Part shown: piece by piece, positions 5,521-25,371 of the stretch
How positions within the stretch are numbered: the stretch's first letter is position 1
Layout of the letters: each line of letters opens with the position of its first letter
Assembly (NCBI GenBank): GCA_021827745.1
Contig: JAKAUI010000058.1
Span: 1 to 64,000, forward strand
Origin: Bacillota bacterium
GTDB taxonomy: Bacteria; Bacillota; Sulfobacillia; JAJZYS01; JAJZLH01
Length of the DNA stretch: 64,000 nucleotides
Reading direction: 5' to 3'
Notes under the pieces: model-generated
What the model saw: the letters and a program-made list of their open reading frames with translations, nothing else
Database searches by the model: none
What the model was told of the DNA's origin: nothing
Position numbers and translations under genes: made by a program

Positions 5521-5521
5521 G

Positions 5522-7082: not shown

Positions 7083-8978
7083 CTAGGGCAGGGCAGTGGT
7101 CGTGGTGGACGGGCTGATCTGACCGAAGAATTCGAGAGGGTTGGTGCCAGAGTTGGTGGCCCCCCAGAAGCTCAGGTTGCCTGTCGGACCCAAGACGAGA
7201 GAGTGAAGGTCGTACCCTGCAGGCAGTCCCTTGGTGAACAGGGTGACGGTCCCCGACGGACTGATCTCGCCGATAAAGGTTGACTCCGCACTACTATCCG
7301 GGTTTCCCAGGAACCAGATGTCTCCACCTGGACCTAATGTAAGGTGACGCACAAAGCAAGACGCCGAAGTCGAACCAGAGGTAGCCGGACACAAGCCCTT
7401 CGTGAATACGCTGATTACGCCAGACCCGCTGATCTTGCCGATGAAGCTGGAGCTGTTGGAGCCAGAGCGTTGGCCGACGAACCACATGGAGCCGCTCGGG
7501 CCGGCGACGAAATCACTAAAGAACGACGTAGACGCAGGCAGGCCCTTCGTGAAGCGGGTGACGGTTCCAGACGGGCTGATCCTGTCGATGAAGCTCCCGT
7601 GGTTGGGGCCTGATCCGGTGAGCCAAATGTCGCCACCAGGCGCCACTGTCAGGTTGCCTACTGCGCATCCAATCGTCTGAGGCGAGCAAGGAGTGGACGG
7701 ATACAGGTCATTGGTGAACCGGGTGACGGTCCCGGACGGAGTGATCAGGCCGAAACCGGTCGGAGCGGGGGTGACACCGCTGTCGATATAGAACAACATG
7801 TCGCCGCCGGGCCCCGGTCGCAGGCACGTCCTGTACCCCCACCCGAAACATGCCTGTTGTACGTCCCTGGTGAACAGGCTGATCGTGCCAGATGGACTGA
7901 TCTTGCCAATGAAGCTGGTGTTGTTGGACACGTATCCGCGGAACCAGATGTCGCCGTCCGGGCCCAATGTCAGGTCGTTCACAGAGCATGACGCCGAAGT
8001 CGCGCAATACGCGGACGGATACAGGCCCTTCGTGAACACGCTGATCGTGCCCGAGGGAGTGATGTTGCCGACGAAGCTGGTGTTATCGGAGCCGTAGCCG
8101 ACGAACCAGATGTCTCCGCCCGGACCTAGCGTCAGGTCGCTCACAGAGCCCGTCGACGCAGGCAGGCCCTTCGTGAACAGGATGACCGTTCCCAATGGAG
8201 TGATCTTTCCGATCACTCCCTGACAGCCGAACCACACGCCGCCCGGACCAGGGGTCAGAGGGTAGAGACAGCTGACGCCCCCGCCCAGAGTGGATGGGGA
8301 GGGCCCCTTGGTGAACAGGGAGTAGGTCCCGGCCGGGGTGATCCGGCCGACACCTAGAGGCGCGTTGCTGCCTCCCGTGAGGCCGAATGGCGGGGCGACC
8401 ACAAACCACAGGTTGCCGGATGAGTCAGGAGTATAGAAGAAGTCATGGGGAGAGGTCACATGGAAAATCTGGTCATCAGCAGGCAGGCAGGTGAGGCGGA
8501 GAGATGCTGTGCTGGCGCCCTGTCCGGTGGACGATAGGCTGGAGCGTGTATTGCACCAGGATGGGAGGGTGACCGAAGCGTCGACGTTGCTGGCAGCACC
8601 GCTGCCGCCACTGACCGACACCACAACCGGCGCCGAGGTGGCCACCAGTTGCCCCTTGCCGATCAACTCGACCTTGAACAGATAGGAGCCTGGATCGAGG
8701 CTGAGGCTGATCGAGTTGGCGGATACTGCAGCCCGCCACTTGCCGTTCTCGTACAGCCGGATCTGGTCGTTGCCGCTGGCGGTGAAGTGAGAGACGGCCC
8801 AGCGGACCGTGACCTCAGTGGACGTTTGGGAGGACGGGATCGTCAGGATGGACCCGCTGGCAGGGGAGACGATGCGAACCGAAGGCTGCACCGCAGGTGT
8901 CGCAGGCGCGCCACAGCCGGCGGCCACCAGCAGCAGGCAGGGCAGCAACAGGATGCGGGCCAGGGATCTGTTGTGCAT
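7083..8978 (-). CDS. Paralog 1: lipoprotein with Ig-like segment and Vgb-like beta-propeller repeats
   Basis: ATG at 8978 after RBS GGAGGA (MHNRSLARILLLPCLLLVAAGCG lipobox); repeated GPGGDIWF...IGKISPSGTI.LFTKG units. Confidence 0.88.
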   Translation of the reverse strand: MHNRSLARILLLPCLLLVAAGCGAPATPAVQPSVRIVSPASGSILTIPSSQTSTEVTVRWAVSHFTASGNDQIRLYENGKWRAAVSANSISLSLDPGSYLFKVELIGKGQLVATSAPVVVSVSGGSGAASNVDASVTLPSWCNTRSSLSSTGQGASTASLRLTCLPADDQIFHVTSPHDFFYTPDSSGNLWFVVAPPFGLTGGSNAPLGVGRITPAGTYSLFTKGPSPSTLGGGVSCLYPLTPGPGGVWFGCQGVIGKITPLGTVILFTKGLPASTGSVSDLTLGPGGDIWFVGYGSDNTSFVGNITPSGTISVFTKGLYPSAYCATSASCSVNDLTLGPDGDIWFRGYVSNNTSFIGKISPSGTISLFTRDVQQACFGWGYRTCLRPGPGGDMLFYIDSGVTPAPTGFGLITPSGTVTRFTNDLYPSTPCSPQTIGCAVGNLTVAPGGDIWLTGSGPNHGSFIDRISPSGTVTRFTKGLPASTSFFSDFVAGPSGSMWFVGQRSGSNSSSFIGKISGSGVISVFTKGLCPATSGSTSASCFVRHLTLGPGGDIWFLGNPDSSAESTFIGEISPSGTVTLFTKGLPAGYDLHSLVLGPTGNLSFWGATNSGTNPLEFFGQISPSTTTTALP

Positions 8979-9023
8979 CCGGAGTTCCTCCCCAGGCAAA
9001 AGCGAAAGCTGACACCATACTGA

Positions 9024-9051
9024 AGAGCCCTCTGCTTCAGCAAAGGGTTCC
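9024..9051 (-). promoter_or_regulatory. Shared upstream motif copy 1 (GGAACC-N18-CTCT)
   Basis: Minus strand GGAACC CTTTGCTGAAGCAGAGGG CTCT, about 70 nt before ATG 8978. Confidence 0.7.
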
Positions 9052-9146
9052 TGAAAGCGCTGGGTTGTCCTCTGCCTGTCCGGGGCCAGCAGGGCGCTGC
9101 TCGGTACTTGCTCCATGCGGCTCCCAGAGACATCTGGCAGGCTTTT

Positions 9147-11078
9147 CTAAGGAACAGGGGTGGTCGTGCCCGACGGGCTGATCTGACCGAAGAAGTCGAG
9201 CGGGTTAAGGCGGGAATTGGAGGCTCCCCAGAAACTCAGGCTGCCTGTCGGACCCAAGATGAGAGAGTGAGGGTCATACCCTGCAGGCAGGCCCGTAGGG
9301 AACACGCTGACGACTCCTGACGGGCTGATCCGGTCGATGAAGCTCGTGGGGATCCCATGGACGACGAACCAGATGTTTCCGCCTGGGCCCAATATCAGGT
9401 GACTGACAGAGCAAGACGCCGGAGTCGAACCAGGGGCGGTCGGACATAGGTTCTTGGTGAACAGGGTGATCAAGCCCGACGAGCTGACCTTGCCGATGAA
9501 GATGGAGTTGTTGGAGCCAGAGCGCTGGCCGACGAACCACATGGAGCCGCTCGGGCCAGCGACGAAATTGCTAAAGAACGACGTCGACGCAGGCAGGCCG
9601 TTCGTGAAGCGGGAGACGGTTCCAGATGGGCTGAGTCGATCGATGAAGCTCGTATGGTCCGGGCCCGATCCGGCGAGCCAGATGTCGCCGTCGCTGCCCA
9701 ATGTCAGGCTGTCCACTCCGCACCCAGTTGTCTGAGGCGAACAGGGAGCGGATGGATACAGGTCCGTGGTGAACCGGGTGACGGTGCCAGAGGGAGTGAT
9801 CAGGCCGAAGCCGGTGGACGCGATCCCTACACCGCTGCCGATGTAAAACAGCATGTCAGCGCCAGGGCCCGGGTGCAGGCACGTCTGCGCCCAGTCGGTA
9901 CACATTAGCTGTAGACCCTGGGTGACAAGAGTGGTGGTCCCAGACGGACTGATCTTGCCAATGAAGCTGGTGCTGTTGGAGGCGTAGCCTCGGAACCAGA
10001 TGTCGCCGTCCGGGCCCAATGTCAGGTCGTTCACAGAGCAGGACGTCGAAGTCGAACAATAAGCGGACGGATACAGGCCCTTCGTGAACACGCTGATCGT
10101 GCCCGAGGGAGTGATGTTGCCGACGAAACTGGTGTTATCGGAGCCGTAGCCGACGAACCACATGTCGCCCCCCGGACCTAGTGTCAGGTCGTTTACAGAG
10201 GTCGTCGACGCAGGCAGGCCCTTGGTGAACAGACTGACGGTTCCGGACCGGCTGATCCTGCCGATGGCTCCCGAACAGCTGAACCACATGCCGCCCGGAC
10301 CAGGGGTCAGAGGCCAGGGGCAGCTCTCGCCAGAGTTCGAAAACGACGAGTTGCCCACGCCGGGCACGCCTGCCGAGAACAGAGAGAAGGTCCCAGTCGG
10401 GGTGATCCGGCCGATGCCCAGAGGTGCGTTGTTGCCGCCCGTGAGGCTGGATGGCGGTAGGACCACAAACCACAAATTACCGGATGAATCAGGAGCATAG
10501 ACGAACGCGTGTGGACCAGACACCAGGAACATCTGGTCGCCGTTCGGTAGGCAGGTGAGGCGGACAGGCACCGTGCTGGCGGGTTGCCCGGGAGACGACA
10601 GGCTGGTGCGTGTGTTGCACCAGGATGGGAGGGTGACCGAGACGGTGGTGGGGGTACTGCTGCTGGCAACTTTGGCGGCACTGACTGACACCACAACTGG
10701 GGCCGAGGTGGCCACCACCTGGCCCTTGCTGCTCGTGGCCAGCTCGGCCGTGAATCGATAGGAGCCGGGAGCCAGGCTGAGCTTGATCGAGTTGGAGAAC
10801 AGGATGTTCCACAGCTTGCCGTTCTCGTAGAGTCGGATCTCACCACTGCCTGGCTGGGCCGTGGTGGCAGAATTGGCCAGGGTGAAATGGGAGACGGAGA
10901 AGCGGATCGTGAGATCAGTGGACGTCTGGGAGGAAGGGATCTTCAGGGTGGACCCGGTGACGGGAGAGACGATCCTGATCGATGGCTTTACGGCCGGTGT
11001 CGCAGGCGCGCCACAGCCGGCGACTGCAAGCAGCAGGCACGGCAGCACGAGCAGGTGGACGAGCGATCTACTCGGCAT
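9147..11078 (-). CDS. Paralog 2: lipoprotein with Ig-like segment and Vgb-like beta-propeller repeats
   Basis: MPSRSLVHLLVLPCLLLAVAGCG lipobox; same architecture as paralog 1. Confidence 0.88.
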   Translation of the reverse strand: MPSRSLVHLLVLPCLLLAVAGCGAPATPAVKPSIRIVSPVTGSTLKIPSSQTSTDLTIRFSVSHFTLANSATTAQPGSGEIRLYENGKLWNILFSNSIKLSLAPGSYRFTAELATSSKGQVVATSAPVVVSVSAAKVASSSTPTTVSVTLPSWCNTRTSLSSPGQPASTVPVRLTCLPNGDQMFLVSGPHAFVYAPDSSGNLWFVVLPPSSLTGGNNAPLGIGRITPTGTFSLFSAGVPGVGNSSFSNSGESCPWPLTPGPGGMWFSCSGAIGRISRSGTVSLFTKGLPASTTSVNDLTLGPGGDMWFVGYGSDNTSFVGNITPSGTISVFTKGLYPSAYCSTSTSCSVNDLTLGPDGDIWFRGYASNSTSFIGKISPSGTTTLVTQGLQLMCTDWAQTCLHPGPGADMLFYIGSGVGIASTGFGLITPSGTVTRFTTDLYPSAPCSPQTTGCGVDSLTLGSDGDIWLAGSGPDHTSFIDRLSPSGTVSRFTNGLPASTSFFSNFVAGPSGSMWFVGQRSGSNNSIFIGKVSSSGLITLFTKNLCPTAPGSTPASCSVSHLILGPGGNIWFVVHGIPTSFIDRISPSGVVSVFPTGLPAGYDPHSLILGPTGSLSFWGASNSRLNPLDFFGQISPSGTTTPVP

Positions 11079-11124
11079 CCGGATCCTCCTTCGCAGGTGA
11101 GCAGGGAGGCAGACACCGTGACTG

Positions 11125-11152
11125 AGAGCCGCTCCCTCTAGCAAATGGTTCC
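11125..11152 (-). promoter_or_regulatory. Shared upstream motif copy 2 (GGAACC-N18-CTCT)
   Basis: Minus strand GGAACC ATTTGCTAGAGGGAGCGG CTCT. Confidence 0.7.
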
Positions 11153-11325
11153 CGGCGGCGATGGGTCGTCCTGTGTAGATAACGATGCCAAAGTCGCGGT
11201 CCATGCCTAGAGCGAAGGTGGAAATCAAGAACCATCGTCTGGTCGGAGGTGTCCGATCCCGCTGAGATAAGGTGTCGTCTGGGATGTCCGTCCCATTCGG
11301 ATCCTAGGAGATACCCCGACGGCCT

Positions 11326-13242
11326 CTAGGGAAGATTAGCGGTCGTGCTCGACGGGCTGATCTGGCCGAAGAATGTTGGCGCGTTGGACCCAGAGCGGGC
11401 CATCCCCCAGAAGCTCAGGTCGCCCGTCGGACCGAGGACGAGAGAGCCAAGGCCGTACCCTGCAGGCAGACCCGTAGAGAACACGCTGACCGTGCCGGAT
11501 GGGCTGACCTTGCCGATGAACGGCCCCGAGTGAGAGTTCTGGTTCCCGATGAACCAGATGTCGCCGCCCGGTTCTAATGTCAGGCCGGTCAAGAAACAGG
11601 ACGTCGGAACCGAACAAGAAGCGAGTGGAGAGAAGCCCTTAGAGACGACGCTGACCGTGCCGGACGGGCTGATCCTGCCGATGAAGTTGGTCTTGTTGGC
11701 TTCCGAGCCGAGGAACCACATATCACCTCTCACACCGGGGACAAAATTGCCAACAGAAGACGTCGAGGCAGGCAGGCCCTGGGTGACGCGGGTGACGGTT
11801 CCCGACGGGCTGATCCTATCGATGAAGCTCGCATGGTTGGGGCCTGCTCCGGCGAGCCAGATGTCGCCACTAGGGCCTATTCTCAAAATGCCCACTCCGC
11901 ACCCAGCCGTCTGAGGCGAGCAAGGAGCCGATGGATACAGGTCATTGGTGAACCGGGTGACGCTGCCCGAGGGAGTGATCAGGCCGAAGCCTGTGGATCC
12001 GGGCTCTACACTGCTGCCAATGTAAAACAGCATGTCGCTGCCAGGGCCCGGGTGCAGGCACGACTGCGCCCAATCGGTACACATTTGTTGAAGACCCTGG
12101 GTAAACAGGGTGACTGCTCCAGACGGAGTGATTTTGCCGATGAAGCTCGGGTTGCTGGAGCCGTTCACGCTGGGGACGTTGGGGTTGTTGCCGGTGAACC
12201 ACATGTTGCCGCCCGGACCCAAGGTCAAGGAACCAACTTGACAAGATGCCGGAGCCGAACCAGAGGCGGCCGGACACAGGCCCTTGGTGAACACGCTTGC
12301 CGTCCCCGACGGGCTGATCTTGCCGATGAAGTTGGTCTTGTTGGCTTCCGAGCCGACGAACCACATGTCACCGCCCAGACCGGGGACGAAATCACCGATA
12401 GAAGAGGTCGCGGCAGGCAGGCCCGTGGTGAACAGGCTGACCGTGCCGGACGGGCCGATCCTACCGATGGTTCCCGAGCAGCTGAACCACATGCCGCCGG
12501 GGCCAGGCGTCAGAGGCCAGGGGCAGGTGTCGCCAGAGTTCGAAAAGGGCGAGCTGCCCACGCCGGTCACGCCTGCCGAGAACAGGGAGAAGCTCCCGGC
12601 TGGGGTGATCCGACCGATGCCCAGAGGCGCGTTGCTGCCCCCCGTACCGAATGGCGGCGCGACCACAAACCACAGGTTGCCGGATGAGTCGGGAGCGTAG
12701 TAGAACTCATCAAAACCAGTCACCCTGAATATCTGGTCATCGCCGGGCAGGCAGGTCAGGCGGACGGACACCGTGCTGGCGCTCTGTCCGGTGGACGAGA
12801 GAGTGGCGCGGGTATTGCACCAGGCTGGGAGGGTGACCGAGGTGGAAGCACTAAGCGACATCGCAACTGGCGCCGAGGTGGCCACCACCTTGCCGTTCGT
12901 GACCAATTCGGCCTTGAACTGATAAGAGCCAGGACCAAGGCCGAGGCTGATCGAGTTGGAGGTCACCATGCCCCACAACTTGCCGTTCTCGTAGAGCCGG
13001 ATCTGGCCGCTGCCCGATTGGGCGGCGCTGGCAAAATTGACCAGGGTGAAGTGAGAGACGGAGAAGCGGATCGTGACCGTGGTGGACGGTCGGAAGGAAG
13101 GAATCGTCAGGGTGGACCCGCTCGCAGGGGAGACGATTCGGATCGACGGTTTTGCGGCCGGTGTCGCAGGCGCGCCACAGCCGGCGGCAGCAAGCAGCAG
13201 CCACGGCAACACCAGGAGGCGGACGAGCGATCTACCAGGCAT
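11326..13242 (-). CDS. Paralog 3: lipoprotein with Ig-like segment and Vgb-like beta-propeller repeats
   Basis: MPGRSLVRLLVLPWLLLAAAGCG lipobox; same repeats. Confidence 0.88.
   Translation of the reverse strand: MPGRSLVRLLVLPWLLLAAAGCGAPATPAAKPSIRIVSPASGSTLTIPSFRPSTTVTIRFSVSHFTLVNFASAAQSGSGQIRLYENGKLWGMVTSNSISLGLGPGSYQFKAELVTNGKVVATSAPVAMSLSASTSVTLPAWCNTRATLSSTGQSASTVSVRLTCLPGDDQIFRVTGFDEFYYAPDSSGNLWFVVAPPFGTGGSNAPLGIGRITPAGSFSLFSAGVTGVGSSPFSNSGDTCPWPLTPGPGGMWFSCSGTIGRIGPSGTVSLFTTGLPAATSSIGDFVPGLGGDMWFVGSEANKTNFIGKISPSGTASVFTKGLCPAASGSAPASCQVGSLTLGPGGNMWFTGNNPNVPSVNGSSNPSFIGKITPSGAVTLFTQGLQQMCTDWAQSCLHPGPGSDMLFYIGSSVEPGSTGFGLITPSGSVTRFTNDLYPSAPCSPQTAGCGVGILRIGPSGDIWLAGAGPNHASFIDRISPSGTVTRVTQGLPASTSSVGNFVPGVRGDMWFLGSEANKTNFIGRISPSGTVSVVSKGFSPLASCSVPTSCFLTGLTLEPGGDIWFIGNQNSHSGPFIGKVSPSGTVSVFSTGLPAGYGLGSLVLGPTGDLSFWGMARSGSNAPTFFGQISPSSTTANLP
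11858..12142 (-). repeat. Near-identical block shared by paralogs 3 and 4 (partner 14051..14335)
   Basis: About 285 nt, constant offset 2193, only a handful of mismatches by eye, no indels. Confidence 0.85.
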
Positions 13243-13288
13243 CCAGACCCTCCTTCCCAGGTGAGCACAGAGGCAGACACCGAGACAG

Positions 13289-13316
13289 AGAGTCCCTCCC
13301 TCCAGCAAATGGTTCC
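13289..13316 (-). promoter_or_regulatory. Shared upstream motif copy 3 (GGAACC-N18-CTCT)
   Basis: Minus strand GGAACC ATTTGCTGGAGGGAGGGA CTCT. Confidence 0.7.
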
Positions 13317-13512
13317 CAGCGAAGGTGAGTCGTCCTCTCTGTATCGCGGCGCCAGCGCCCTAGGAAAGCGGCGAACGAAGATCTTGGGTTTATTCCCCTG
13401 CGAAGAAGAGGACCCAAGGCCCCTGACAGGCTGAGGGTGGCCGGTCCTGCGGAGAAGGGTGTCATGTGAGTCGTCCGTCCGATTCGGATCCTAGGAGACA
13501 CCAGATGGGCCT

Positions 13513-15360
13513 CTAGGGAAGATTAGCGGTCGTGCCCGACGGGCTGATCTGGCCGAAGAATGTTGGCGGGTTGGGGCCAGAGTCGACGCTCCCGAAGAAG
13601 CTCAGATCGCCTGTCGGCCCTTGGACGAGATCGCTTACGCTGGACGTCGACACAGGCAGGCCTTTGGTGAACAGCGTGACCGTCCCGGACGAGCTGATCT
13701 CGCCGATGAACGGTGGCCCCGAGTTGGCACTCGCGTTCCCCAGGAACCAGATTTCGCCGCCCGGGCCTAGTGTTAGGTTGCCTACAGAGCAAGACATAGG
13801 AGTCGAACAAGAAGCGGACGGATACAGGCCCTTAGAGAACACGCTGATCACGCCTGACGGACTGATCTTGCCGATGAAGTCGGCGTTGTTGGAGCCTGAG
13901 CCGACAAACCACATATTGCCGCTCGGGCCAACGACGAGATTGCCACTAAAGGACGTCGACGCAGGCAGTCCCTTGGTGAAGTGGGTGATGGTCCCGGACG
14001 GACTGATCCTGTCGACGAAGCTCACATGGTTGGGGCCTGATCCGGCGAGCCAGATGTCGCCACTAGGGCCTATTGTCAAACTGCCCACTCCGCACCCAGC
14101 CGTCTGAGGCGAGCAAGGAGCCGATGGATACAGGTCATTGGTAAACCGGGTGACGCTGCCCGAGGGAGTGATCAGGCCGAAGCCGGTGGATCCGGGCTCT
14201 ACACTGCTGCCAATGTAGAACAGCATGTCGCTGCCAGGGCCCGGGTGCAGGCACGACTGCGCCCAATCGGTACACATTTGTTGAAGACCCTGGGTAAACA
14301 GGGTGACTGCCCCAGACGGAGTGATCTTGCCGATGAGGCCGCGGCCGGTGAACCAGATGTCACCGCCGGGGCCCAATGTCAGATCGTTCCCATAGCAAGC
14401 TGAGCCGGTCGAACATGTAAACAGTGGATGCAGGGCCTTTGCCAACACGGTGATCGTACCCGACGGCGTGATTTTGCCGATGAAGTTGGTGTGAGATGAG
14501 CCCGTACCGTCGAACCACAGATCCCCGCCCAGACCAGGGACGAAATTGCCAATAGAAGACGTCGACCCAGGCAGGCCCTTCGTGAACAGACTGACGGTTC
14601 CGGAGGGGCTGATCCTGCCGATGGATCCAGGACAGCCGAACCACATGCCGCCGGGCCCAAGTGTCAACGGATAGAGGCAGATCTCGGCAGGGCCCGGAGA
14701 CAGCAAGCTGTTCCCGGGTGTCGCGAACAGGGAGAAGGTCCCGGTCGGGGTGATTCGGCCGATGCCCAGAGGTGCGTTGCTGCCCGTGAGGCTAAATGGC
14801 CTTCCGACGACAAACCAGAGGTTGCCCGATGAGTCAGGAGCATAGAAGAAGTTGCCTGGGGAGGTTTCATGGAAGATCTGCTCACCAGCAGGCAGGCAGG
14901 TGAGGCGGAGAGATACCGTACGGGCGGGCTGTCCGTTGGACGTGAGGCTGATGCGCGTATTGCACAAGGACGAGAGAGTGGCCGAGACGTGGGCGGCGCT
15001 GACCGTCACGACAACGGGTGCCGAGGCGGCCATCACCTTGCCGTTCGTGACCAGCTCGGCCGTGAATCGATACGAGCCGGCAGCAAGGATGAGACCGATC
15101 GAGTTGGAGGTCACCATGCCCCACAATTTGCCGTTTTCGTCCAGTCGGATCTGGTTACTGCCGCCGGCGGTGAAGTGAGAGACGGCCCACCGGACGGTGA
15201 CTGCTTCGGTAGGCCCGCTCGTCACGAAATTGGACCCAGTTGCTGGCGAGACGATCCGGATCGAAGGCTTTGCGGCTGGTGTGGCCGGAGCGCCACAGCC
15301 GACGGCAGCGAGCAGCAGCCCCGGCAACACGAGGAGGCGGACGAACGATCTACCAGGCAT
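13513..15360 (-). CDS. Paralog 4: lipoprotein with Ig-like segment and Vgb-like beta-propeller repeats
   Basis: MPGRSFVRLLVLPGLLLAAVGCG lipobox; same repeats. Confidence 0.88.
   Translation of the reverse strand: MPGRSFVRLLVLPGLLLAAVGCGAPATPAAKPSIRIVSPATGSNFVTSGPTEAVTVRWAVSHFTAGGSNQIRLDENGKLWGMVTSNSIGLILAAGSYRFTAELVTNGKVMAASAPVVVTVSAAHVSATLSSLCNTRISLTSNGQPARTVSLRLTCLPAGEQIFHETSPGNFFYAPDSSGNLWFVVGRPFSLTGSNAPLGIGRITPTGTFSLFATPGNSLLSPGPAEICLYPLTLGPGGMWFGCPGSIGRISPSGTVSLFTKGLPGSTSSIGNFVPGLGGDLWFDGTGSSHTNFIGKITPSGTITVLAKALHPLFTCSTGSACYGNDLTLGPGGDIWFTGRGLIGKITPSGAVTLFTQGLQQMCTDWAQSCLHPGPGSDMLFYIGSSVEPGSTGFGLITPSGSVTRFTNDLYPSAPCSPQTAGCGVGSLTIGPSGDIWLAGSGPNHVSFVDRISPSGTITHFTKGLPASTSFSGNLVVGPSGNMWFVGSGSNNADFIGKISPSGVISVFSKGLYPSASCSTPMSCSVGNLTLGPGGEIWFLGNASANSGPPFIGEISSSGTVTLFTKGLPVSTSSVSDLVQGPTGDLSFFGSVDSGPNPPTFFGQISPSGTTANLP
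14051..14335 (-). repeat. Near-identical block shared by paralogs 4 and 3 (partner 11858..12142)
   Basis: See partner block. Confidence 0.85.
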
Positions 15361-15405
15361 CCAGACCCTCCTCCCCAGGTGAGCACAGAGGCAGGCACGA
15401 GACTG

Positions 15406-15433
15406 AGAGTCTTTCCCCGTAGGAAATGGTTCC
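15406..15433 (-). promoter_or_regulatory. Shared upstream motif copy 4 (GGAACC-N18-CTCT)
   Basis: Minus strand GGAACC ATTTCCTACGGGGAAAGA CTCT. Confidence 0.7.
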
Positions 15434-15582: not shown

Positions 15583-17493
15583 CTAGGGAAAGGGTGTGGT
15601 CGTGGTGGACGGGGTGATCTGGCCGAAGAATGTTGGCGCGTCATGCCCAGGGTCGGCGAACCCCAGGAAACTCAGGGTCCCTGTCGGACCAAGGCTCAGT
15701 GAGCCCAGTTCGTACGCTGCAGGCAAGCCCTTAGAGAACACGCTGACCGTGCCGGAGGGACTGATCCTGCCGATGAACGGCGGTGCCGAGCCAGTGCTCG
15801 TGGATCCCAGGAACCAGATGGCGCCGTCCGGGCCTGCTGTCGGGTCGCTCACAAAGCAAGATGCCGCAGTAGAAGCAGCGCTGGCCGGACACAGAGCCTT
15901 TGTAAACAGCGTCACGGTCCCAGACGGACTGATCTTGCCAATGTAGCTGGCGTTGCTGGGCCCGTAGCCGCTGAACCAGACGGCACCGTCAGGACTCAAT
16001 GTCAGGTGGCCCAGAGAGCAGGAAGACGAACAAGGACCGGACGGATACAGGCCCTTGGTGAACAGCGTGACGGTCCCGGACGGGCTGATCTTGCCGATGA
16101 ACGTTATCGCCGGGTTGGTGGACGCGTACCCGGTGAACCAGACGGTACCGTCAGGACTCAATGTCAAGCCACTCGGAGAGCAGAAAGTCGAACAAAGAGC
16201 GGACGGAGCCAGGCCCTTCGTGAAGTGGGTGACGGTTCCTGACGGGCTGACCTTATCGATGAAGATGGGGTTGTTTGGGCCCGATCCGGCGAGCCAGATG
16301 TCGCCGCCAGGGCCCACTGTCAGGTCGCTCATAAAGCAAGACGGCTGAGCCGGACAAGAAGCGGACGGATACAGGGCGTTGGTGAACCGGCTGACGCTCC
16401 CAGACGGAGTGATCAAACCGAAGCCAATTGTTGCGTTGGCTGTAGTGCCGCCGACGGAGAACAACATGTCGCTGCCAGGCCCCGGTTGCAGGCACGTCTG
16501 CTCGGCCAAGCCGGGACACATCGCTTGAAGGCCCCGGGGAACAAGGGTGACGGCGCCAGACGGACTGATCATGCCAATGAAGCTGGTGTTGTTGGACCCG
16601 TATCCACGGAACAAGATGTCGCCGTTCCGGCCCCATGTCAGGTCGTTCAGAGCGCAGGACGTCGGAGTCGAACAATAGGCGGATGGAGCCAGTCCCTTGG
16701 TGAACAGACTGATCGTGCCGGACGGGACGATCTTGCCGATGACTCCCGGACAGCCGAACCACATGCCGCCGGGACCAGGTGTCAAGGGGTACAGGCCGCT
16801 CGACAGGCAGCCGGATGTAGAGAGTCCCTTCGAGTACACGGAAAAGGTCCCGGTCAGGGTGATCCGACCGATGCCCAGACGCGCGTAGGTGACTCCCGTG
16901 CCGGATGGCGGGGCGACCACAAACCACAGATTGCCGGATGAGTCAGGAGCGTAGAACTCGTGAAAACCGGTCATCCTGAAAATCTGATCGCCGCCCGGCA
17001 AGCAGGTCAGGCGAACGGACACCGTGCTGGCGGGCTGCCGATCGGACATGAGACCGGTGCGCGTGTTGCACCAGGATGGGACGGTGACCGAAACGCCGGC
17101 GTTGCTGGCAACACCGCTGCTGCCATTGACCGACACCACAACTGGCGCCGAGGTGGCCACTACCTTCCCTTTCCCGACCAACTCGACCTTGAACTGATAA
17201 GAGCCTGGACCAAGGCTGAGGCTGATCGAGTTGGCGGAAACTGCGGCCCGCCACTTGCCGTTCTCGTACAGTCGGATCTGGTCGCTGCCGCCGGCGGTGA
17301 AGTGAGAGACGGCCCACCTGACGGTGACCGTGGTGTCCACCTGGGAGGACGAGATCTTCAGGCTGGATCCATTGGCAGGCGAGACGATCCGGATCGAAGG
17401 CTTTGCCCCTGGTGTGGCCAGAGCGCCACAGCCGGCGGCAGCGAGCAGCAGGCAAGGCACAAGCAGGAGGCGGACTAGTGACTTATGAGACAT
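15583..17493 (-). CDS. Paralog 5: lipoprotein with Ig-like segment and Vgb-like beta-propeller repeats
   Basis: MSHKSLVRLLLVPCLLLAAAGCG lipobox; same repeats. Confidence 0.88.
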   Translation of the reverse strand: MSHKSLVRLLLVPCLLLAAAGCGALATPGAKPSIRIVSPANGSSLKISSSQVDTTVTVRWAVSHFTAGGSDQIRLYENGKWRAAVSANSISLSLGPGSYQFKVELVGKGKVVATSAPVVVSVNGSSGVASNAGVSVTVPSWCNTRTGLMSDRQPASTVSVRLTCLPGGDQIFRMTGFHEFYAPDSSGNLWFVVAPPSGTGVTYARLGIGRITLTGTFSVYSKGLSTSGCLSSGLYPLTPGPGGMWFGCPGVIGKIVPSGTISLFTKGLAPSAYCSTPTSCALNDLTWGRNGDILFRGYGSNNTSFIGMISPSGAVTLVPRGLQAMCPGLAEQTCLQPGPGSDMLFSVGGTTANATIGFGLITPSGSVSRFTNALYPSASCPAQPSCFMSDLTVGPGGDIWLAGSGPNNPIFIDKVSPSGTVTHFTKGLAPSALCSTFCSPSGLTLSPDGTVWFTGYASTNPAITFIGKISPSGTVTLFTKGLYPSGPCSSSCSLGHLTLSPDGAVWFSGYGPSNASYIGKISPSGTVTLFTKALCPASAASTAASCFVSDPTAGPDGAIWFLGSTSTGSAPPFIGRISPSGTVSVFSKGLPAAYELGSLSLGPTGTLSFLGFADPGHDAPTFFGQITPSTTTTPFP

Positions 17494-17538
17494 TCCGACC
17501 CTCCTCTCCAGGCGAGCGCAGAGGCGACACCATGACTA

Positions 17539-17566
17539 AGCGTCTGCTCGAGTGGCAAGTGGATCT
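17539..17566 (-). promoter_or_regulatory. Degenerate copy 5 of the shared upstream motif
   Basis: Minus strand AGATCC ACTTGCCACTCGAGCAGA CGCT; same spacing and downstream TCATGGTGTCGCC, mismatches in both boxes. Confidence 0.45.
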
Positions 17567-17754
17567 AGGAGGCGCGTGTCACCCTGCGACGGACGACTCA
17601 GGCGATGGCGACTGGGGACATCTGCCCTCCCGGCTGCAATTTGTCCACCGACCTTCTTGTCGCTTGGGCCGGGGGCCGCAGTCGGTCAGCCGCACCAGCT
17701 GCCGGAAGCGGAACCCGCGATGGAGGCGCATTAGCCCTACCGTAGGTGGGCATT

Positions 17755-19587
17755 CTACGGCGAGGCGGCCGCCGCCGTGACCAGCCCCAGGCCCTCCGTG
17801 TTGGCGTTGACGGCCCAGAAAAACCACAGGCGTTTGCCTGGTCCCGATGTCAAGTGGTTACCGCTAGGCAGGTGGCTTTTCGTGAACAGGCTGATCGTCC
17901 CGGACGAAGTGATCTCTCCGATCGAGAACTGGCCTCCGTTACCCGTGTAGACGGTGAACCAGAGGTTTCCGCCAGGGCCGAGGACCAAACGCCCCAGGTA
18001 GTCTCCGGCAGGCAGGCCCTTGGTGAACAGGTTGACGGTCCCAGACGGCCCGATCCTGCCGATGCTTGTCGTAGAAGCGTTGCATCCGGTGGATACGGTG
18101 AACCACATAGCGCCCGCCGAGCCTGGGGTCAGGCCGCTCAGATTCGGACAAGAAGCGGCCGGCGGCAGGCCCTTGGTCAGCAGCGTGATCGTTCCAGACG
18201 GCGTGATCCTGCCAATGGACGCTTGGCCTCCGCTACTGCCGCATCCTGATCCTGTGGACAAGGTGAACCACATGTCGCCGCCTGGGCCTGGGGTCAGGCC
18301 GATGCCGCCGTATTCCAACGACAAGCCACCCAGCGTCGGACAGGACGCAGCCGGTGGCAGGCCCGTGCTGAAGAGTGAGACCGTCCCGGACGAAGGGATC
18401 TTGCCGATGTCTGAGACCCACGGCCCGCGGCATGAACTCCCCGCTGCGAACCACAAGTTGCCGCCAAGGTCTGGCGTCAATCCGGCCAGTCCAGAGCAGG
18501 TTCCGGCCGGGAGGCCCGTGGGAAACACGGAGATGACTCCGGACGGGGTAATTCGGCCGATCGAGAGGACACCCCCCATCTTCCCGAAAACGGTGAACCA
18601 CAGGTTGTCGCCAGGGCCGGGGACCAAAGGCCCCGGATAGCCTCCGGCAGGCAGGCCCTTGGTGAACAGCGTGATCGCGCCGGCCGGGGTGATCTTGCCG
18701 ATCGAGAACGAGCTCCCGCTGCCGGTGTAGACCGTGAACCACTGGTCGCCGCTTGTGCCCAAAGTCAGGTCGCTCAGATAGCCGGCTTTGGGCAGACCCT
18801 TGGAGAAGAGCGTGATCGCCCCGGACCGGGTGATCCTGCCGATCGCTCCCTGACAGGGGAACCACAGGCCACCTGGCCCAGGTGTCAGTGGGTAGGGCCC
18901 GTCCGGCCCGCAATCGGATGCGGGCAGGCCCTTCGTGAATACGGACATGGCCCCAGACGGGGTGATCCTGGCAATCCCTCGAGCGGAGTTGTCGTTCGTC
19001 GAGCCGAGCACAAACCACAGGTTGCCGGAGGAATCAGGCACAAAGAAGAAGTCATGTGGCGAAGTGATATGAAACACGGTGTCGGCACCAGGTAGGCAGA
19101 AGAGACGGATGGAGACTGCCTGGGCCCCCGCCGAGCCGGTGGTCACGCCCCGGGGCGAATCGGGGCAGGCGTGCCTTGCTGTCCCTAGCCATGGCAGCGA
19201 ACTGACGGACAGCACGGAGGTCGCCGAGGTGGCAACCACGCTGCCGTTTGTCACCAGCACGGCCCTGAGCAGGTAGGAGCCGGGAGCCAGATCGAGGCGG
19301 ATCGAGCTTGTGGAAGAAACCGCCACTGCCTTGCCGTTCTCGTACAGCCGGATCTGGCCGCTGCCTGGTTGGGTGTTGCCGCTTGCGTCGACCAGGGTGA
19401 AATGGGAGACGGACACGCGGACTGTGACTATGGCCACCGCCCGACTGGTCAGCGGGAGATTGGAGCCGGTGGTCGGCGCGAGGATGCGGACCGCCGGCTG
19501 GGTTGGTGCCACCGAACTGCCACACCCGGAAACGGCGAGTAGCAGACAGGCAGTCAGGAGAAGGCGGACCCGGGGTCTATCATGCAT
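17755..19587 (-). CDS. Paralog 6: lipoprotein with Vgb-like beta-propeller repeats (more divergent)
   Basis: MHDRPRVRLLLTACLLLAVSGCGSS lipobox; GPGGNLWFTVYTGNGGQFSIGEITSSGTISLFTK repeats. Confidence 0.88.
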   Translation of the reverse strand: MHDRPRVRLLLTACLLLAVSGCGSSVAPTQPAVRILAPTTGSNLPLTSRAVAIVTVRVSVSHFTLVDASGNTQPGSGQIRLYENGKAVAVSSTSSIRLDLAPGSYLLRAVLVTNGSVVATSATSVLSVSSLPWLGTARHACPDSPRGVTTGSAGAQAVSIRLFCLPGADTVFHITSPHDFFFVPDSSGNLWFVLGSTNDNSARGIARITPSGAMSVFTKGLPASDCGPDGPYPLTPGPGGLWFPCQGAIGRITRSGAITLFSKGLPKAGYLSDLTLGTSGDQWFTVYTGSGSSFSIGKITPAGAITLFTKGLPAGGYPGPLVPGPGDNLWFTVFGKMGGVLSIGRITPSGVISVFPTGLPAGTCSGLAGLTPDLGGNLWFAAGSSCRGPWVSDIGKIPSSGTVSLFSTGLPPAASCPTLGGLSLEYGGIGLTPGPGGDMWFTLSTGSGCGSSGGQASIGRITPSGTITLLTKGLPPAASCPNLSGLTPGSAGAMWFTVSTGCNASTTSIGRIGPSGTVNLFTKGLPAGDYLGRLVLGPGGNLWFTVYTGNGGQFSIGEITSSGTISLFTKSHLPSGNHLTSGPGKRLWFFWAVNANTEGLGLVTAAAASP

Positions 19588-19634
19588 GAGGACCGTCCTC
19601 TCCAGGCGAGAGCGAGAGCCGACACCATCACTGC

Positions 19635-19662
19635 AGAGTCTTTCTCTTTAGAAAACGGTTCC
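19635..19662 (-). promoter_or_regulatory. Shared upstream motif copy 6 (GGAACC-N18-CTCT)
   Basis: Minus strand GGAACC GTTTTCTAAAGAGAAAGA CTCT. Confidence 0.7.
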
Positions 19663-19786
19663 CGCGAGCCGCGGGTCCTCCTCCGTCAAGCCGTCGGAAT
19701 CCGGCCGGTAGGCAGAGAGACGACAGCGGTTGCCCGTCGGCCGGTGCGTCTTACAGTCGCAGTGCGCGCAGGGGCAATTCCCGAGG

Positions 19787-21688
19787 CTACGGGACGGAGA
19801 CCGTGACTCGCCCGACGGCGAAGTACGGGCTGAAGGGGCCGCAGCCGCAGAAGTTCTCCGGAGGGGCCACCGAAGCGCCGTCGCCACCTACGAGGCTGCC
19901 GTAGCCAAACCACAGGGTGTTGTTGGCCCCGGAGACCAACCAGCTTGCCTTGGCGATCGAGTTGGCCGGCAATCCTCGATGGAAGAGGGTGACCGTCCCC
20001 GACGGGGTAATTTGACCGATGGCGAGCGAGGCACTTGTGCCGACAGAGGTCTCGAACCACAGAGTTCCATTTGGCCCAGGTAGCAGCGGGCTCAGACTGG
20101 CGCCAGTCGGTAGACCGCTCGAATAGAGGGTAATCATGCCGGATGGAGTGATCTTGCCGACCGAGGGCTGGCCGGTGGGACTCGTCGTTTCGACGACGAA
20201 CCACATGTCACCGCCCGGGCCCGGCACCAGGCCGCCGCCATACGCATGTGCAGGCAGGCCTTTGGTGAACACGCTGATCGTGCCTGATGGACTGATCTGC
20301 CCGATGCCCATGGACCCGTTGCATGGCCCAACCCCGGCGAACCAGCCAATGCAGGCGACAAACCACATGTCTCCCTGAGAGCCGAAGACCAGATTGCCAG
20401 CGGGGCCGCCGGATGGCTGGCCGGATGGGTTCGTAGCCATGGGTATGCCCTTCGAGAAGAGGGTGATGGCCCCAGACGGGGTGATGCGGCCGATGGCGGA
20501 CTGACCACTGTTAGTGCCGGCGGTGAACCACAGATCGCCCCTCGGGCCCGACACGAGGCGGCCCAGAGAAGCCCACCCACTCAATCCCTTTGTGAAGAAG
20601 GTGACAGATCCAGAGGGGTTGACCCGACCGATGGCCGACAAAGTCCCGGTCGTCGATCTCGCCGGTTGAACAGTAAACCATAGGTCTCCACCAGCACCTG
20701 GCAGCAGGTCAGACGTTACCGCTGCCGCAGCCAGGCTGGATGGGAACAGGGAGATCGTCCCGGATGGTGTGATCCGGCCAATGGGCCTGGTTCCGCTGGT
20801 ACCGACGCGAAAGACTGTGAACCACAGGTCGCCGCCGGGACCCATCACGAGACCTCTCGGATAGTCCCCAGCAGCCAGGCCCTTGGAGAATACGGAGATG
20901 TTTCCGGATGGGGTGATCCGGCCGACGGCACCACCCGCGCCATAGCCAGAAAGATCGATCGTGAACCATAGGTCGCCGCCGGGTCCTACAACCAGATCCG
21001 ACAGGGTGGCCGCTGCAGGCAGGCCCTTCGAGAAGACCGAGGTGGTCCCGGAGGGCGTAACCCGGCCCACGCCCGACGGGGAGCCGTTCGTAGATCCCGC
21101 CGGCTGGATCAGAAACCACATGTCGCCGTTCGAGAACTGCACCAGCGCAGGGTGCGACCCTGGGAGAGGCTCCCACATTCCATAGGCGGCCGGCAGGCAG
21201 GAGAGACTGATCGAAACGGTCTCCGCCGGGCTGACAGGTCGGGTTACACCAGGCGTCAAGGAGTGGCAGCTGGGTGAGGCGGCGAGCGTCGGTGCGACCA
21301 CCGTAACCAGGTCCGGTGCGGAGATGGCCACCACCTTGCCGTTCGTGACCAGTTCGGCCCTGAACTGATAAGAACCAGGACCAAGGCCGAGGCGCACCGA
21401 GTTGGAGGTCGCCATGCCCCACAACTTCCCATTCTCGTACAGCCGGATCTGACCGCTGCTCGGTTGGGCAGCGGTGGCAAAGTTGACCAGGGTGAAGTGG
21501 GAGATCGAGAAGTGGATGGTGACCGTCGCGGACACTTGAGCGGACGCAAGATTCAGGCTGGACCCGTTCGTCGGGGAGACGATCCTGATCGAAGGCTTGG
21601 CGGTTGGTGTCGCAGGCGCACCACAACCGGCGGCAGCCAGCAGAAGGCAGGGCACCAGGAGCAGGCGGAAGGGGGACCTGCCGTGCAT
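19787..21688 (-). CDS. Paralog 7: lipoprotein with Ig-like segment and Vgb-like beta-propeller repeats
   Basis: ATG at 21688: MHGRSPFRLLLVPCLLLAAAGCG lipobox; GPGGDLWFTV...IGRITPSGTISLF repeats. Confidence 0.88.
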   Translation of the reverse strand: MHGRSPFRLLLVPCLLLAAAGCGAPATPTAKPSIRIVSPTNGSSLNLASAQVSATVTIHFSISHFTLVNFATAAQPSSGQIRLYENGKLWGMATSNSVRLGLGPGSYQFRAELVTNGKVVAISAPDLVTVVAPTLAASPSCHSLTPGVTRPVSPAETVSISLSCLPAAYGMWEPLPGSHPALVQFSNGDMWFLIQPAGSTNGSPSGVGRVTPSGTTSVFSKGLPAAATLSDLVVGPGGDLWFTIDLSGYGAGGAVGRITPSGNISVFSKGLAAGDYPRGLVMGPGGDLWFTVFRVGTSGTRPIGRITPSGTISLFPSSLAAAAVTSDLLPGAGGDLWFTVQPARSTTGTLSAIGRVNPSGSVTFFTKGLSGWASLGRLVSGPRGDLWFTAGTNSGQSAIGRITPSGAITLFSKGIPMATNPSGQPSGGPAGNLVFGSQGDMWFVACIGWFAGVGPCNGSMGIGQISPSGTISVFTKGLPAHAYGGGLVPGPGGDMWFVVETTSPTGQPSVGKITPSGMITLYSSGLPTGASLSPLLPGPNGTLWFETSVGTSASLAIGQITPSGTVTLFHRGLPANSIAKASWLVSGANNTLWFGYGSLVGGDGASVAPPENFCGCGPFSPYFAVGRVTVSVP

Positions 21689-21738
21689 TTTGGACTTTCC
21701 TCCTCCGAAATGAGGCCACAGGCGATTGCTATGACTGA

Positions 21739-21766
21739 AGAGTCCCCGGGTTCGGCAAAGGGTTCC
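21739..21766 (-). promoter_or_regulatory. Shared upstream motif copy 7 (GGAACC-N18-CTCT)
   Basis: Minus strand GGAACC CTTTGCCGAACCCGGGGA CTCT. Confidence 0.7.
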
Positions 21767-21933
21767 TGCCGACGCTCTAGCGTGCCCCGCGTAGCCAGCC
21801 ATCTCGGCAGGCTCGGTCGGCAGCATGCGGTCCCGAAATCGTTGGCCAGCCTTTGGGCGCCTGTGGGCTCGGACTGCTGCCTTAGCCGCGTTCCCAATGC
21901 TACCTCGCTACCTCCTGGACCCCAGGCAGACAT

Positions 21934-23337
21934 CTAGGGAACAGCGGTGGCGTTGAGCGTTAGGCTGAGCCGTCCGATGAAGCTGGCGCCATTGGAGCGA
22001 CTGCCCACGAACCACACAGCGCCCCTGAAACCAAGGAGAGGGCGATCACGAGAGCTCAAGGTATAGCCAGAGGGCAGACCCCAAGTGAGCACGCTGCTCG
22101 TGCCAGATGGGGTGATCTGGTCGATGGAGATCGTGTTGTTGGTGCCCAGACCATAGAGCCACATCTTGCCGTCTGGGCCCGGGCTGGGACCGCCCGGTAG
22201 AGTGGTTCCCCCTGGCATGCTGAACATGCGGATTGCGCCAGACGGAGCGATCTTGCCGACGAAAGAACCAGAGTTGGCGTTCCCGCTGAACCACATATCG
22301 CCGCTCGGACCGGGGGCAAGAGAGTTGGTCCACATATTGACGGGCAGGTCCTTCGTGAATACCTGGACGACTCCGGACGGACTGACCTTGCCGATGCCTC
22401 CCAGATAGCCGAACCACATATCACCGACCTTGCCGGGGACGAGGGGATTGATCCACATATTGGCGGGCAGGCCCTTCGTGAATACCTGGACGACTCCGGA
22501 CGGACTGACCTTGCCGACGTCTCCCTGAGAGTCGAACCACATGTTGCCCCCAGATCCCGCTGTCAGGGACAACACGTACCTGTTGAACATAGTGACGGTT
22601 CCCGACGGGGTGATCATGCCGAAGCCAGCGTACCCCGGCCCATAGCCCGCGTTGGGGATGGTGGTGAACCACATGTCGGCGCCAGAGCCTGATTTCAGGA
22701 ACACAACGCCTGACTTGGGCAGTCCCTTGGTGAACACCGTGACGACTCCGGCTGGATTGACCGTGCCAACGAATGGTCGAGAGCTGGCAGATCCGGAAAA
22801 CCACATATCGCCGCTACCGCTAAGGGCGAGACTGCCAATTCGGGTGCTCGGAGGCAGGCAGGTGAGGCGAATGGACGCCGTGTTCGGCGGTTGCGTGTTG
22901 GCCACTGCCGCAGAGGGTGTCCCGCATCCAACGGTCGACAAGATGGTGGTCGGGACCAAGGCGTTGACGACCGAGACGGCGGAGGGCGCCGAGGTAGCCA
23001 CGACCTTGCCGCTCTTGACCAAGGTTGCCTTAAAGAGATAGGTGCCTGGCACCAGGCTGAGGCTGATCGAGTTGGATACCAGCACGTCCCACAGCTTCCC
23101 GTTCTCATACAGCTGGATCTGGTCGCTGCCTCCCAGGGTGAAGTGGGAGACAGCCAAGCGGACCGTGACATTGATCGGCCCCGCCACTCGGGGGTTCATC
23201 CGCAGGGTGGACTCGGTGGCGGGCGAGACGATGCGGACCTCAGGCTTCACAGCTGGTGTCGCAGGCGCACCACAGCCCGACACAGCAAGCAGCAGGCAGG
23301 GCACCAGGAGGAGGCGGAGGAGAAATCTACGGTGCAT
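21934..23337 (-). CDS. Paralog 8: shorter lipoprotein with Ig-like segment and Vgb-like repeats
   Basis: MHRRFLLRLLLVPCLLLAVSGCG lipobox; IGKVSPSGVVQVFTK repeats including a duplicated blade. Confidence 0.87.
   Translation of the reverse strand: MHRRFLLRLLLVPCLLLAVSGCGAPATPAVKPEVRIVSPATESTLRMNPRVAGPINVTVRLAVSHFTLGGSDQIQLYENGKLWDVLVSNSISLSLVPGTYLFKATLVKSGKVVATSAPSAVSVVNALVPTTILSTVGCGTPSAAVANTQPPNTASIRLTCLPPSTRIGSLALSGSGDMWFSGSASSRPFVGTVNPAGVVTVFTKGLPKSGVVFLKSGSGADMWFTTIPNAGYGPGYAGFGMITPSGTVTMFNRYVLSLTAGSGGNMWFDSQGDVGKVSPSGVVQVFTKGLPANMWINPLVPGKVGDMWFGYLGGIGKVSPSGVVQVFTKDLPVNMWTNSLAPGPSGDMWFSGNANSGSFVGKIAPSGAIRMFSMPGGTTLPGGPSPGPDGKMWLYGLGTNNTISIDQITPSGTSSVLTWGLPSGYTLSSRDRPLLGFRGAVWFVGSRSNGASFIGRLSLTLNATAVP
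22330..22565 (-). repeat. Internal tandem duplication of one beta-propeller blade (period 123 nt = 41 codons) in paralog 8
   Basis: ccacatattg..cgggcaggtccttcgtgaatacctggacgactccggacggactgaccttgccga at 22330 recurs at 22453. Confidence 0.8.
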
Positions 23338-23385
23338 TTTGAACCTTCCTCCTCCGAATCAGCCCACAGGCGACGCCCTCACTGA

Positions 23386-23413
23386 AGAGTCCCCAGGTTC
23401 GGCAAGAGGTTCC
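23386..23413 (-). promoter_or_regulatory. Shared upstream motif copy 8 (GGAACC-N18-CTCT)
   Basis: Minus strand GGAACC TCTTGCCGAACCTGGGGA CTCT. Confidence 0.7.
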
Positions 23414-23564
23414 TGCCGACGCTCTATCGTGCCCTGCGGGGTCAGCCATCCCGGCAGACTCGGTCGGCGGCAGGCGGTCCCGAAACAGCTGACCAGCCCT
23501 TGGTCGACTGTGGGCTCGGGCTGCTTGGGCTCTTGATGCTACCTCCTGGACCCCAGGCAGACAT

Positions 23565-25295
23565 CTAGGGAACAGCGGCGGCCTTCCCCGCCAGACTAAG
23601 CTGGCCGATGAACCTGGTGCCGTTGGAGCGACGGCCGGAGAACCACAAATCGCCTCTCAAACCGCTTACGAGCGGATCGGATGAGCTAAAGGTGTCGCCT
23701 GCGGGCAGGCCCCAGGTGAGCACCGTGCTCGTGCCAGCCGGTGTGATCTGGTCGATGAAGAGGGTGTCGTTCTGGCCGAGGCCATAGAGCCACATGCTAC
23801 CGTCTGGGCCCGGGATGGGACCGCCCGGTAGAGTACCTCCCCCAGACAGCCCCTTGGCCAGAACGCTGACCGTACCAGATGGGGCGATCTTGCCGACGAA
23901 AGAGCCAGAGTTGGCGTTCCCGGTGAACCACATATCACCGCGCGGACCGGGGACCAGAGGATTGGTCCACATATTGGCGGTCAGGTCCTTCGTGAATACC
24001 TGGACGACTCCGGACGGACTGACCTTGCCGATGCCTCCCAGAGAGCCGAACCACATAGCGCCGCCAGATCCCGCTGTCAGGGACAACACGTACCTCGTGA
24101 CCGTGGTGACCGTTCCCGACGGGGTGATCATGCCAAAGCCGGAAAACCCCGGGCCGTATCCGTCGTTGGGGCTGGTGGTGAACCACATGTCGGCGCCAGA
24201 GCCTGATTTCAGGATCACAGCGCCCGACTTGGGCAGTCCCCTGGTGAACACCGTGACGACTCCGGCTGGACTGACCGTGCCGACGAATGGGCGAGAGCTG
24301 ACGGATCCGGAAAACCACATATCGCCACCCGGACCAGGGATGGGACTGCTCGACAGATAGCTCCCGGTCGACACATAGCTCCCGGCCGGCAGGTCCGTGG
24401 TGAACAGGGTGATCGTGCCGGAAGGGGTGATCTTGCCGATGAAGCCTGAGCCGGAGAACCACATGTCGCCGCCAGCGCCAAGGACGAGACTGTTAATTGT
24501 GGCGCTCGGAGGCAGGCCTTTGGTGAACACGCTGATCGTACCGGATGGACTGACCTTGCCGATGGCTCCTGGACAAGCGAACCACATGCCTCCCGGGCCA
24601 GGGGTCAGAGAGTTCAAGCAGCTGGATCTATTCCCGCTCGGCCGGAGAGCGGCTTCCGGGAGACCCTGAGAGAACAGGGAGAAGGCCCCAGACGGGGTGA
24701 TCCGACCGACTCCCAGCGGTGAGCCGGCTGCCGATCCGACCACAAACCACAGGTTTCCGGATGAATCAGACTCAGCGGCGAAGCCCCCTTGATACATCGA
24801 GTCAGTGTTTGGCAGACAGGTGAGGCGGATAGACGCCGAGTTTCGCGGTTGCGTGTTGGCCGCTGCCGCAGCGGCTGCCCCGCATCCAACGGTCGACAAG
24901 ATGGTGGTCGGGACCAAGGCGTTGACGACAGAGACCGCGGATGGCACCGAGGTGGCCACGACCTTGCCGCTCTTGACCAAGGTTGCCGTGAACAGATAGG
25001 TGCCCGGCACCAGGCTGAGGCTGATAGAGTTGGAGAAGAGTGTGTCCCAGAGCTTGCCGTTCTCGTACAGCCGGAGCTGGTCGCTGCCTCCCAGGGTGAA
25101 GTGGGAGACAGTCAGGCGGATCGTGACATTGATCGGCCCCGCCACTCGGGGGTTCATCCGCAGGTTGGACCCGGTGGCGGGCGCGACGATACGGACCGAA
25201 GGCTTTACAGCTGGTGTCGCAGGCGCACCACAGCCCGACACAGCAAGCAGCAGGCAGGGCACCAGGAGGAGGCGGAAGAGGGACCTACCGTGCAT
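23565..25295 (-). CDS. Paralog 9: lipoprotein with Ig-like segment and Vgb-like beta-propeller repeats
   Basis: ATG at 25295: MHGRSLFRLLLVPCLLLAVSGCG lipobox; same repeats, closest to paralog 8. Confidence 0.88.
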   Translation of the reverse strand: MHGRSLFRLLLVPCLLLAVSGCGAPATPAVKPSVRIVAPATGSNLRMNPRVAGPINVTIRLTVSHFTLGGSDQLRLYENGKLWDTLFSNSISLSLVPGTYLFTATLVKSGKVVATSVPSAVSVVNALVPTTILSTVGCGAAAAAAANTQPRNSASIRLTCLPNTDSMYQGGFAAESDSSGNLWFVVGSAAGSPLGVGRITPSGAFSLFSQGLPEAALRPSGNRSSCLNSLTPGPGGMWFACPGAIGKVSPSGTISVFTKGLPPSATINSLVLGAGGDMWFSGSGFIGKITPSGTITLFTTDLPAGSYVSTGSYLSSSPIPGPGGDMWFSGSVSSRPFVGTVSPAGVVTVFTRGLPKSGAVILKSGSGADMWFTTSPNDGYGPGFSGFGMITPSGTVTTVTRYVLSLTAGSGGAMWFGSLGGIGKVSPSGVVQVFTKDLTANMWTNPLVPGPRGDMWFTGNANSGSFVGKIAPSGTVSVLAKGLSGGGTLPGGPIPGPDGSMWLYGLGQNDTLFIDQITPAGTSTVLTWGLPAGDTFSSSDPLVSGLRGDLWFSGRRSNGTRFIGQLSLAGKAAAVP

Positions 25296-25343
25296 CCGGA
25301 CCCTCCTCCCCCGAACGAGCGCAGATGCCGCAACCAAGAGTTA

Positions 25344-25371
25344 GGAGTCTTCGCCCCAGGGAAATGGTTCC
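25344..25371 (-). promoter_or_regulatory. Shared upstream motif copy 9 (GGAACC-N18-CTCC)
   Basis: Minus strand GGAACC ATTTCCCTGGGGCGAAGA CTCC. Confidence 0.65.

Follow-up and report, generated by a model that had tools for sequence, protein, structure and literature searches.

A tandem array of nine lipoproteins with predicted Vgb-type propellers and putative ECF-type promoters in a small Bacillota genome

The window analysed here comprises bases 1-64000 of a 77-kb contig (C38; 65.7% guanine plus cytosine) from a fragmented 1.62-Mb assembly of 64 contigs (hereinafter designated G000); two sister species, G001 and G002, were used in comparisons. Nine consecutive minus-strand open reading frames (ORFs) of 467-693 amino acids (aa) span 7083-25337 in the ORF listing, confirming the run of lipoprotein genes located by an earlier first-pass annotation of the same DNA. 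We read these genes (hereinafter designated g1-g9) as encoding genus-specific, diversifying, non-catalytic, surface-anchored binding propellers under extracytoplasmic function (ECF)-type control, at a rough probability of 0.55. Each gene encodes a lipoprotein signal, an immunoglobulin (Ig)-like domain and then a run of blades, and the array takes up about 1% of this small (1.6 Mb) genome.

For g1, g3, g7, g8 and g9, the longer listed ORF extends 5' of the likely lipoprotein start, and their start codons were placed at the signal peptide (25295, 21688, 13242, 11078 and 8978, respectively). The features of the array are as follows.

23565-25295, minus strand: g1, lipoprotein, Ig-like domain and nine WF-type blades (PF24684 E 3.6e-28; blade count; start codon placement)
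21934-23337, minus strand: g2, lipoprotein, Ig-like domain and seven blades (PF24684 E 6.7e-24; AlphaFold pLDDT 71; best PDB matches Vgb)
19787-21688, minus strand: g3, lipoprotein, Ig-like domain and nine blades (PF24684 E 3.7e-37; AlphaFold pLDDT 71, pTM 0.64)
17755-19587, minus strand: g4, lipoprotein, Ig-like domain and Vgb-type propeller, first branch of the array clade (PF24684 E 7.2e-37; tree)
15583-17493, minus strand: g5, lipoprotein, Ig-like domain and Vgb-type propeller (PF24684 E 1.4e-21)
13513-15360, minus strand: g6, lipoprotein, Ig-like domain and Vgb-type propeller, with a patch 98.7% identical to g7 (PF24684 E 9.7e-27)
11326-13242, minus strand: g7, lipoprotein, Ig-like domain and Vgb-type propeller (PF24684 E 1e-22; start codon placement)
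9147-11078, minus strand: g8, lipoprotein, Ig-like domain and Vgb-type propeller (PF24684 E 7.9e-27; start codon placement)
7083-8978, minus strand: g9, lipoprotein, Ig-like domain and Vgb-type propeller (PF24684 E 1.2e-24; start codon placement)
25345-25371, minus strand: g1 promoter, GGAACC-N16-GACTC
23387-23413, minus strand: g2 promoter, GGAACC-N16-GACTC
21740-21766, minus strand: g3 promoter, GGAACC-N16-GACTC
19636-19662, minus strand: g4 promoter, GGAACC-N16-GACTC
17540-17566, minus strand: g5 degenerate promoter, AGATCC-N16-GACGC
15407-15433, minus strand: g6 promoter, GGAACC-N16-GACTC
13290-13316, minus strand: g7 promoter, GGAACC-N16-GACTC
11126-11152, minus strand: g8 promoter, GGAACC-N16-GGCTC
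9025-9051, minus strand: g9 promoter, GGAACC-N16-GGCTC
5983-6834, minus strand: left flank, EamA transporter gene, which adjoins the DAO gene in a sister genome
25541-26686, minus strand: right flank, FAD-dependent oxidoreductase (DAO) gene

Protein architecture and predicted fold

A lipobox with its cysteine (PROSITE PS51257-like pattern) is present in all nine proteins and in 21/21 copies examined overall, bearing out the anchoring signal that had been read into every gene. The Ig-like segment likewise aligns in 9/9 (mean column identity 64%), and bacterial Ig families give sub-threshold matches only, for the Ig-like domain in seven of the nine copies. The linker ascribed to each gene proved less uniform: its 'LPSWCNTR' string can be made out only in g5-g9; g2 lacks the 'DSSGNLWFVV' first blade and g3 has a different one. 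WF-type blade motifs number nine in g1 and g3 and seven in g2; the counts of about nine for g4-g9 are approximate, and the parser used for loop analysis counts degenerate blades slightly differently. At 80% aa identity with two blades fewer, g2 looks like g1 minus two blades.

The resemblance to Vgb proposed in the first-pass annotation is borne out by the Vgb_lyase family (PF24684), which recognises all nine proteins above its Pfam gathering cut-off of 50 bits (77-128 bits, E 1e-21 to 4e-37); otherwise a Pfam scan at E<=0.01 returned only weak Reg_prop, BiPBP_C and DUF6695 matches. AlphaFold models built with only the nine paralogues show a beta-sandwich for the Ig part and a propeller, at predicted local distance difference test (pLDDT) 71 and predicted template modelling (pTM) scores of 0.58-0.64. 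The seven blades of g2 lie within the six to eight expected beforehand, whereas g1 and g3, with about nine, exceed that range. For the g2 model, the six best PDB matches are all Staphylococcus aureus Vgb chains (template modelling score by target 0.71-0.75), and its Foldseek matches also include Ycf48 and TolB. The g3 model matches many propellers with poor superposition, as expected if its predicted ring differs in size from theirs.

Membership of PF24684, together with the finding that the only solved relatives by sequence search are the Vgb enzymes, could point to detoxifying enzymes, lyases or hydrolases that act on peptides or glycans through a relocated active site. Such an enzymatic role is improbable: no Vgb-type copy matches the PH[GA]I motif, which carries the catalytic His in Vgb (visible in 2z2n); each of the nine window propellers has no more than 0-6 His and 0-6 Glu residues, and g2 has neither; and the three array proteins scanned against the NCBIfam VgbA/VgbB models scored 44.6-86.3 bits against a 600-bit cut-off. 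These features argue that the array proteins are Vgb-fold family members and not Vgb enzymes, with a role that is probably binding, not cutting. Automatic annotation is likely to name such non-catalytic Vgb-fold proteins antibiotic-inactivating lyases, which would be misleading.

Gene content suggests where the proteins would reside. No Omp85 was found in a search of the three genomes, and SLH-type matches occur in all three, suggesting a single membrane with an S-layer; the lipoproteins would therefore sit outside the cytoplasmic membrane. An Lgt gene is present in G000.

A shared two-part promoter

GGAACC-N16-G[AG]CTC lies 46-51 nucleotides (nt) upstream of the start codon in eight of the nine genes. 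The earlier claim that each gene has its own matched promoter thus stands for these eight and not for g5, which carries a degenerate version at the same distance. A looser pattern, GGAACC-N{15,17}-GNCTC, occurs 22 times in the 1.62 Mb, both strands included; because ten of these occurrences directly precede these lipoprotein genes (eight in the array and two on C64) and all ten have a spacing of 16, the match in the array is beyond chance.

Duplication alone could copy a promoter, and conservation was therefore tested across groups (the array, C64 and the two sister species). Between-group identity is 98% in the -35 element and 81% in the -10 element (CTC invariant), with 44% in the spacer and 37-38% in the flanks. 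Beyond the Vgb-type genes, the two-part promoter at fixed spacing precedes a sister-species lipoprotein gene with a BNR/Ycf48-type propeller, where the -10 reads CTCTC, and, as GGGAAC[CT]-N16-GNYTCT, an unrelated SIMPL-family gene (PF04402; L176 2168-2905, orthologues L215 and L216) in all three species. Since the SIMPL gene is unrelated, the promoter appears to mark a regulon rather than only copied DNA. The layout (GGAAC -35, a gap of ~16 nt and a short -10) resembles that of ECF sigma promoters, and the promoter is a probable stress-type one.

All three genomes share one ECF sigma gene, located on contig C10 in G000. It is followed by a gene for a ~200-aa single-span protein with no Pfam match, which may be its anti-sigma factor, and GGGAACC, N16-17, GATCGG is kept upstream of it. 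The GATCGG at this own site agrees only in part with the GNCTCT -10, so we give about even odds at best that this sigma factor drives the array promoters. Low-scoring PF08281 matches near the sister array (G001:C19:85289) and on G000:C14, considered as ECF genes beside an array, were rejected as not sigma-like. An Rfam scan of the leaders returned no structured RNA or riboswitch; its two matches were eukaryotic, lay on the other strand and looked like chance.

Origin, distribution and divergence

In G001, the oxidoreductase and EamA genes lie ~150 bp apart with no lipoprotein gene between them, and the nine window Ig domains form one clade relative to all other copies (support 100/99). This combination suggests either that the array arose at the DAO/EamA site in this lineage once the two had separated, or that the sister lost it. 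Mobile-element ends were looked for around the array and none was seen. A single-gene assembly artefact, a concern raised by the first-pass annotation, is unlikely because most copies differ by 25-55% and the unique sequence on either side of the array belongs to the same 77-kb contig.

The proposed clade-specific expansion was upheld. At E<=1e-5 the Ig-domain profile matches 3/399 genomes of the phylum, all of one genus; at E<=0.001 one more genome of the class is added by a weak match (1.3e-5), at a site that reads as no such lipoprotein. Within the class, 39/151 genomes have Vgb-family matches as such, usually one to three each; G000 has 16 and G001 has 21. The full architecture thus appears genus-specific. 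A second array lies on a contig assigned to G000.

This second array (L009, G000:C64:1-9048) holds at least four related lipoprotein genes; an rve/HTH_38 (IS30-like) transposase gene marks its left end, and a rhodanese gene separates the first copy from the second. Its copy c1 differs from G001 copy s4 by a synonymous divergence (dS) of 0.14, and the rest of G000 shares about 75-83% DNA identity with G001 in the stretches compared. Because the C64 copy is closer to G001 than the rest of the genome appears, the second array may have moved horizontally or C64 may have been mis-binned. A foreign origin is also possible for contig C32, on which a second YqeY/EamA region (about 75% identical) lies. 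The array in the window depends on neither contig.

In G001 and G002, a lone lipoprotein gene adjoins one for an S-layer (SLH) protein and may be closest to the ancestral state. Elsewhere in G001, a lipoprotein gene with the promoter and Ig-like start of the array genes (L173 4730-6232, G001:C32) encodes a BNR/Sortilin/Ycf48-type propeller, an apparent head-domain swap. The S-layer neighbour, the Ycf48-type sister member and the Ycf48 and TolB matches of g2 would all suit envelope scaffold or assembly lipoproteins of BamB/TolB/Ycf48 type, whose clients would be the cell's own surface or secreted proteins and whose copies would serve many clients or dosage. We nevertheless consider this a minority possibility, in view of the missing Omp85 and of a copy number that, counted by Ig domain, ranges from 1 to 13 across sister species (the count of 13 depending on C64), which is unusual for a housekeeping scaffold.

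Within the array, identity is patchy. g6 and g7 share a patch that is 98.7% identical over 50 codons against 78% overall, and the corresponding patches reach 96% in g8/g9 and 92% in g5/g9 (0/2000 permutations each). Local duplication with gene conversion is the probable explanation, to which a locally constrained segment could contribute. These patches and the blade deletion might instead reflect largely neutral tandem amplification, in which recombination between repeats makes the array grow and shrink with no selection for diversity, much as csa1 arrays of S. aureus expand in vitro without selection for protein function (PMC7360770). Nine open frames with lipobox and promoter kept speak against neutrality, which we regard as rather unlikely, as do ratios of non-synonymous to synonymous substitution (dN/dS) of 0.35-0.47 between window copies, which show that the copies are under constraint.

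We therefore return to non-catalytic binding propellers, several points about which give pause. No positive selection is seen by dN/dS between window copies. In favour of the reading, the most length-variable segments are the B-C and D-A loops, which lie on one face of propellers; within equal-length classes, however, their variability does not clearly exceed that of all framework columns. Confidence in the AlphaFold models is moderate, and whether the predicted g3 model closes into a nine-blade ring is uncertain because its last 36 residues have low confidence. The degenerate g5 promoter and the differing -10 at the ECF gene's own site also weigh on the negative side.

On balance, we propose that the lipoproteins would be anchored on the outside of the cytoplasmic membrane, probably in a one-membrane cell with an S-layer, each with an Ig-like stalk carrying a Vgb-type propeller that lacks the lyase active site and most likely binds a ligand (glycan or peptide). 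Adhesion, suggested in the first-pass annotation, is a conceivable role. With its own ECF-sigma-type promoter, every copy could be induced together with the others and with the SIMPL-family protein by an envelope signal; we infer this co-induction and the sigma factor used, like surface exposure and ligand binding, from the features described above. The set would have grown by tandem duplication at the single DAO/EamA site and diversified by divergence, blade gain and loss, and patchy exchange between neighbours. A bolder version, which we hold only tentatively, is a surface-receptor repertoire in which recombining propeller heads on a fixed, ECF-controlled promoter-lipobox-Ig cassette rapidly vary binding specificity, changing by blade exchange or by a swap to another propeller type as in the BNR-type sister copy. 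If our reading is right, the array would be a compact natural system that combines an unchanging anchor and promoter with variable propeller heads, and a tractable case of propellers gaining, losing and exchanging blades.

Several other genes were also observed. A D-Ala-D-Ala carboxypeptidase fused to SLH domains (window 26725-28341) lies two genes from the array, in an order conserved in the sisters. The YqeY gene (window 5135-5974) has a longer N-terminal frame than its relatives, which carry an in-frame TGA there; a second YqeY copy lies on contig C32. In G001 an S9 prolyl oligopeptidase-family gene (L195 4890-6731, G001:C13) lies between EamA and YqeY and is missing there in the window. 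Outside the array, a separate SMP-30/gluconolactonase-like propeller gene that matches Vgb weakly stands alone at window 53929-54900.

Comparison with known systems

A literature search found no paper that combines Vgb, propellers and lipoproteins, and one for paralogues of virginiamycin B lyase turned up a single paper, which was unrelated. The seven-bladed PLL/PHL lectins of Photorhabdus, which are among the g3 Foldseek matches, likewise exemplify propellers as multi-copy binding proteins, but share only 10-13% sequence identity with g3 at high root-mean-square deviation. To our knowledge, they have no lipobox or Ig stalk. Vgb itself (PF24684; PDB 2Z2N, 2Z2O, 2QC5) resembles the array proteins in blade sequence style and in the predicted seven-bladed fold of g2, whereas the array proteins are lipoproteins with an Ig stalk, seven to about nine blades and no catalytic His motif, encoded in a multi-copy array. 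In the recently amplified propellers described by Pereira and Lupas (PMC9218822), blade number also changes by local amplification or deletion; here, whole-gene tandem arrays and a shared promoter are added. ECF regulons with a GGAAC-type -35, such as that of EcfG (GGAAC-N17-20-GTT; PMC6599016), have similar spacing to a short -10, but the -10 of the array is GNCTC(T), the lineage differs and the ECF sigma assignment is putative.

Tandem paralogous surface lipoproteins are an already known kind of arrangement. The lpl/csa1 clusters of S. aureus (PMC4470592, PMC7360770) also consist of head-to-tail, divergent membrane lipoprotein paralogues whose copy number changes by recombination. They belong to an unrelated protein family, whose Pfam model has no match in the array proteins (E<=0.01). 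The array is therefore like lpl/csa1 in organisation only, and is set apart by its Vgb-fold propeller heads and by one ECF-type promoter per gene.

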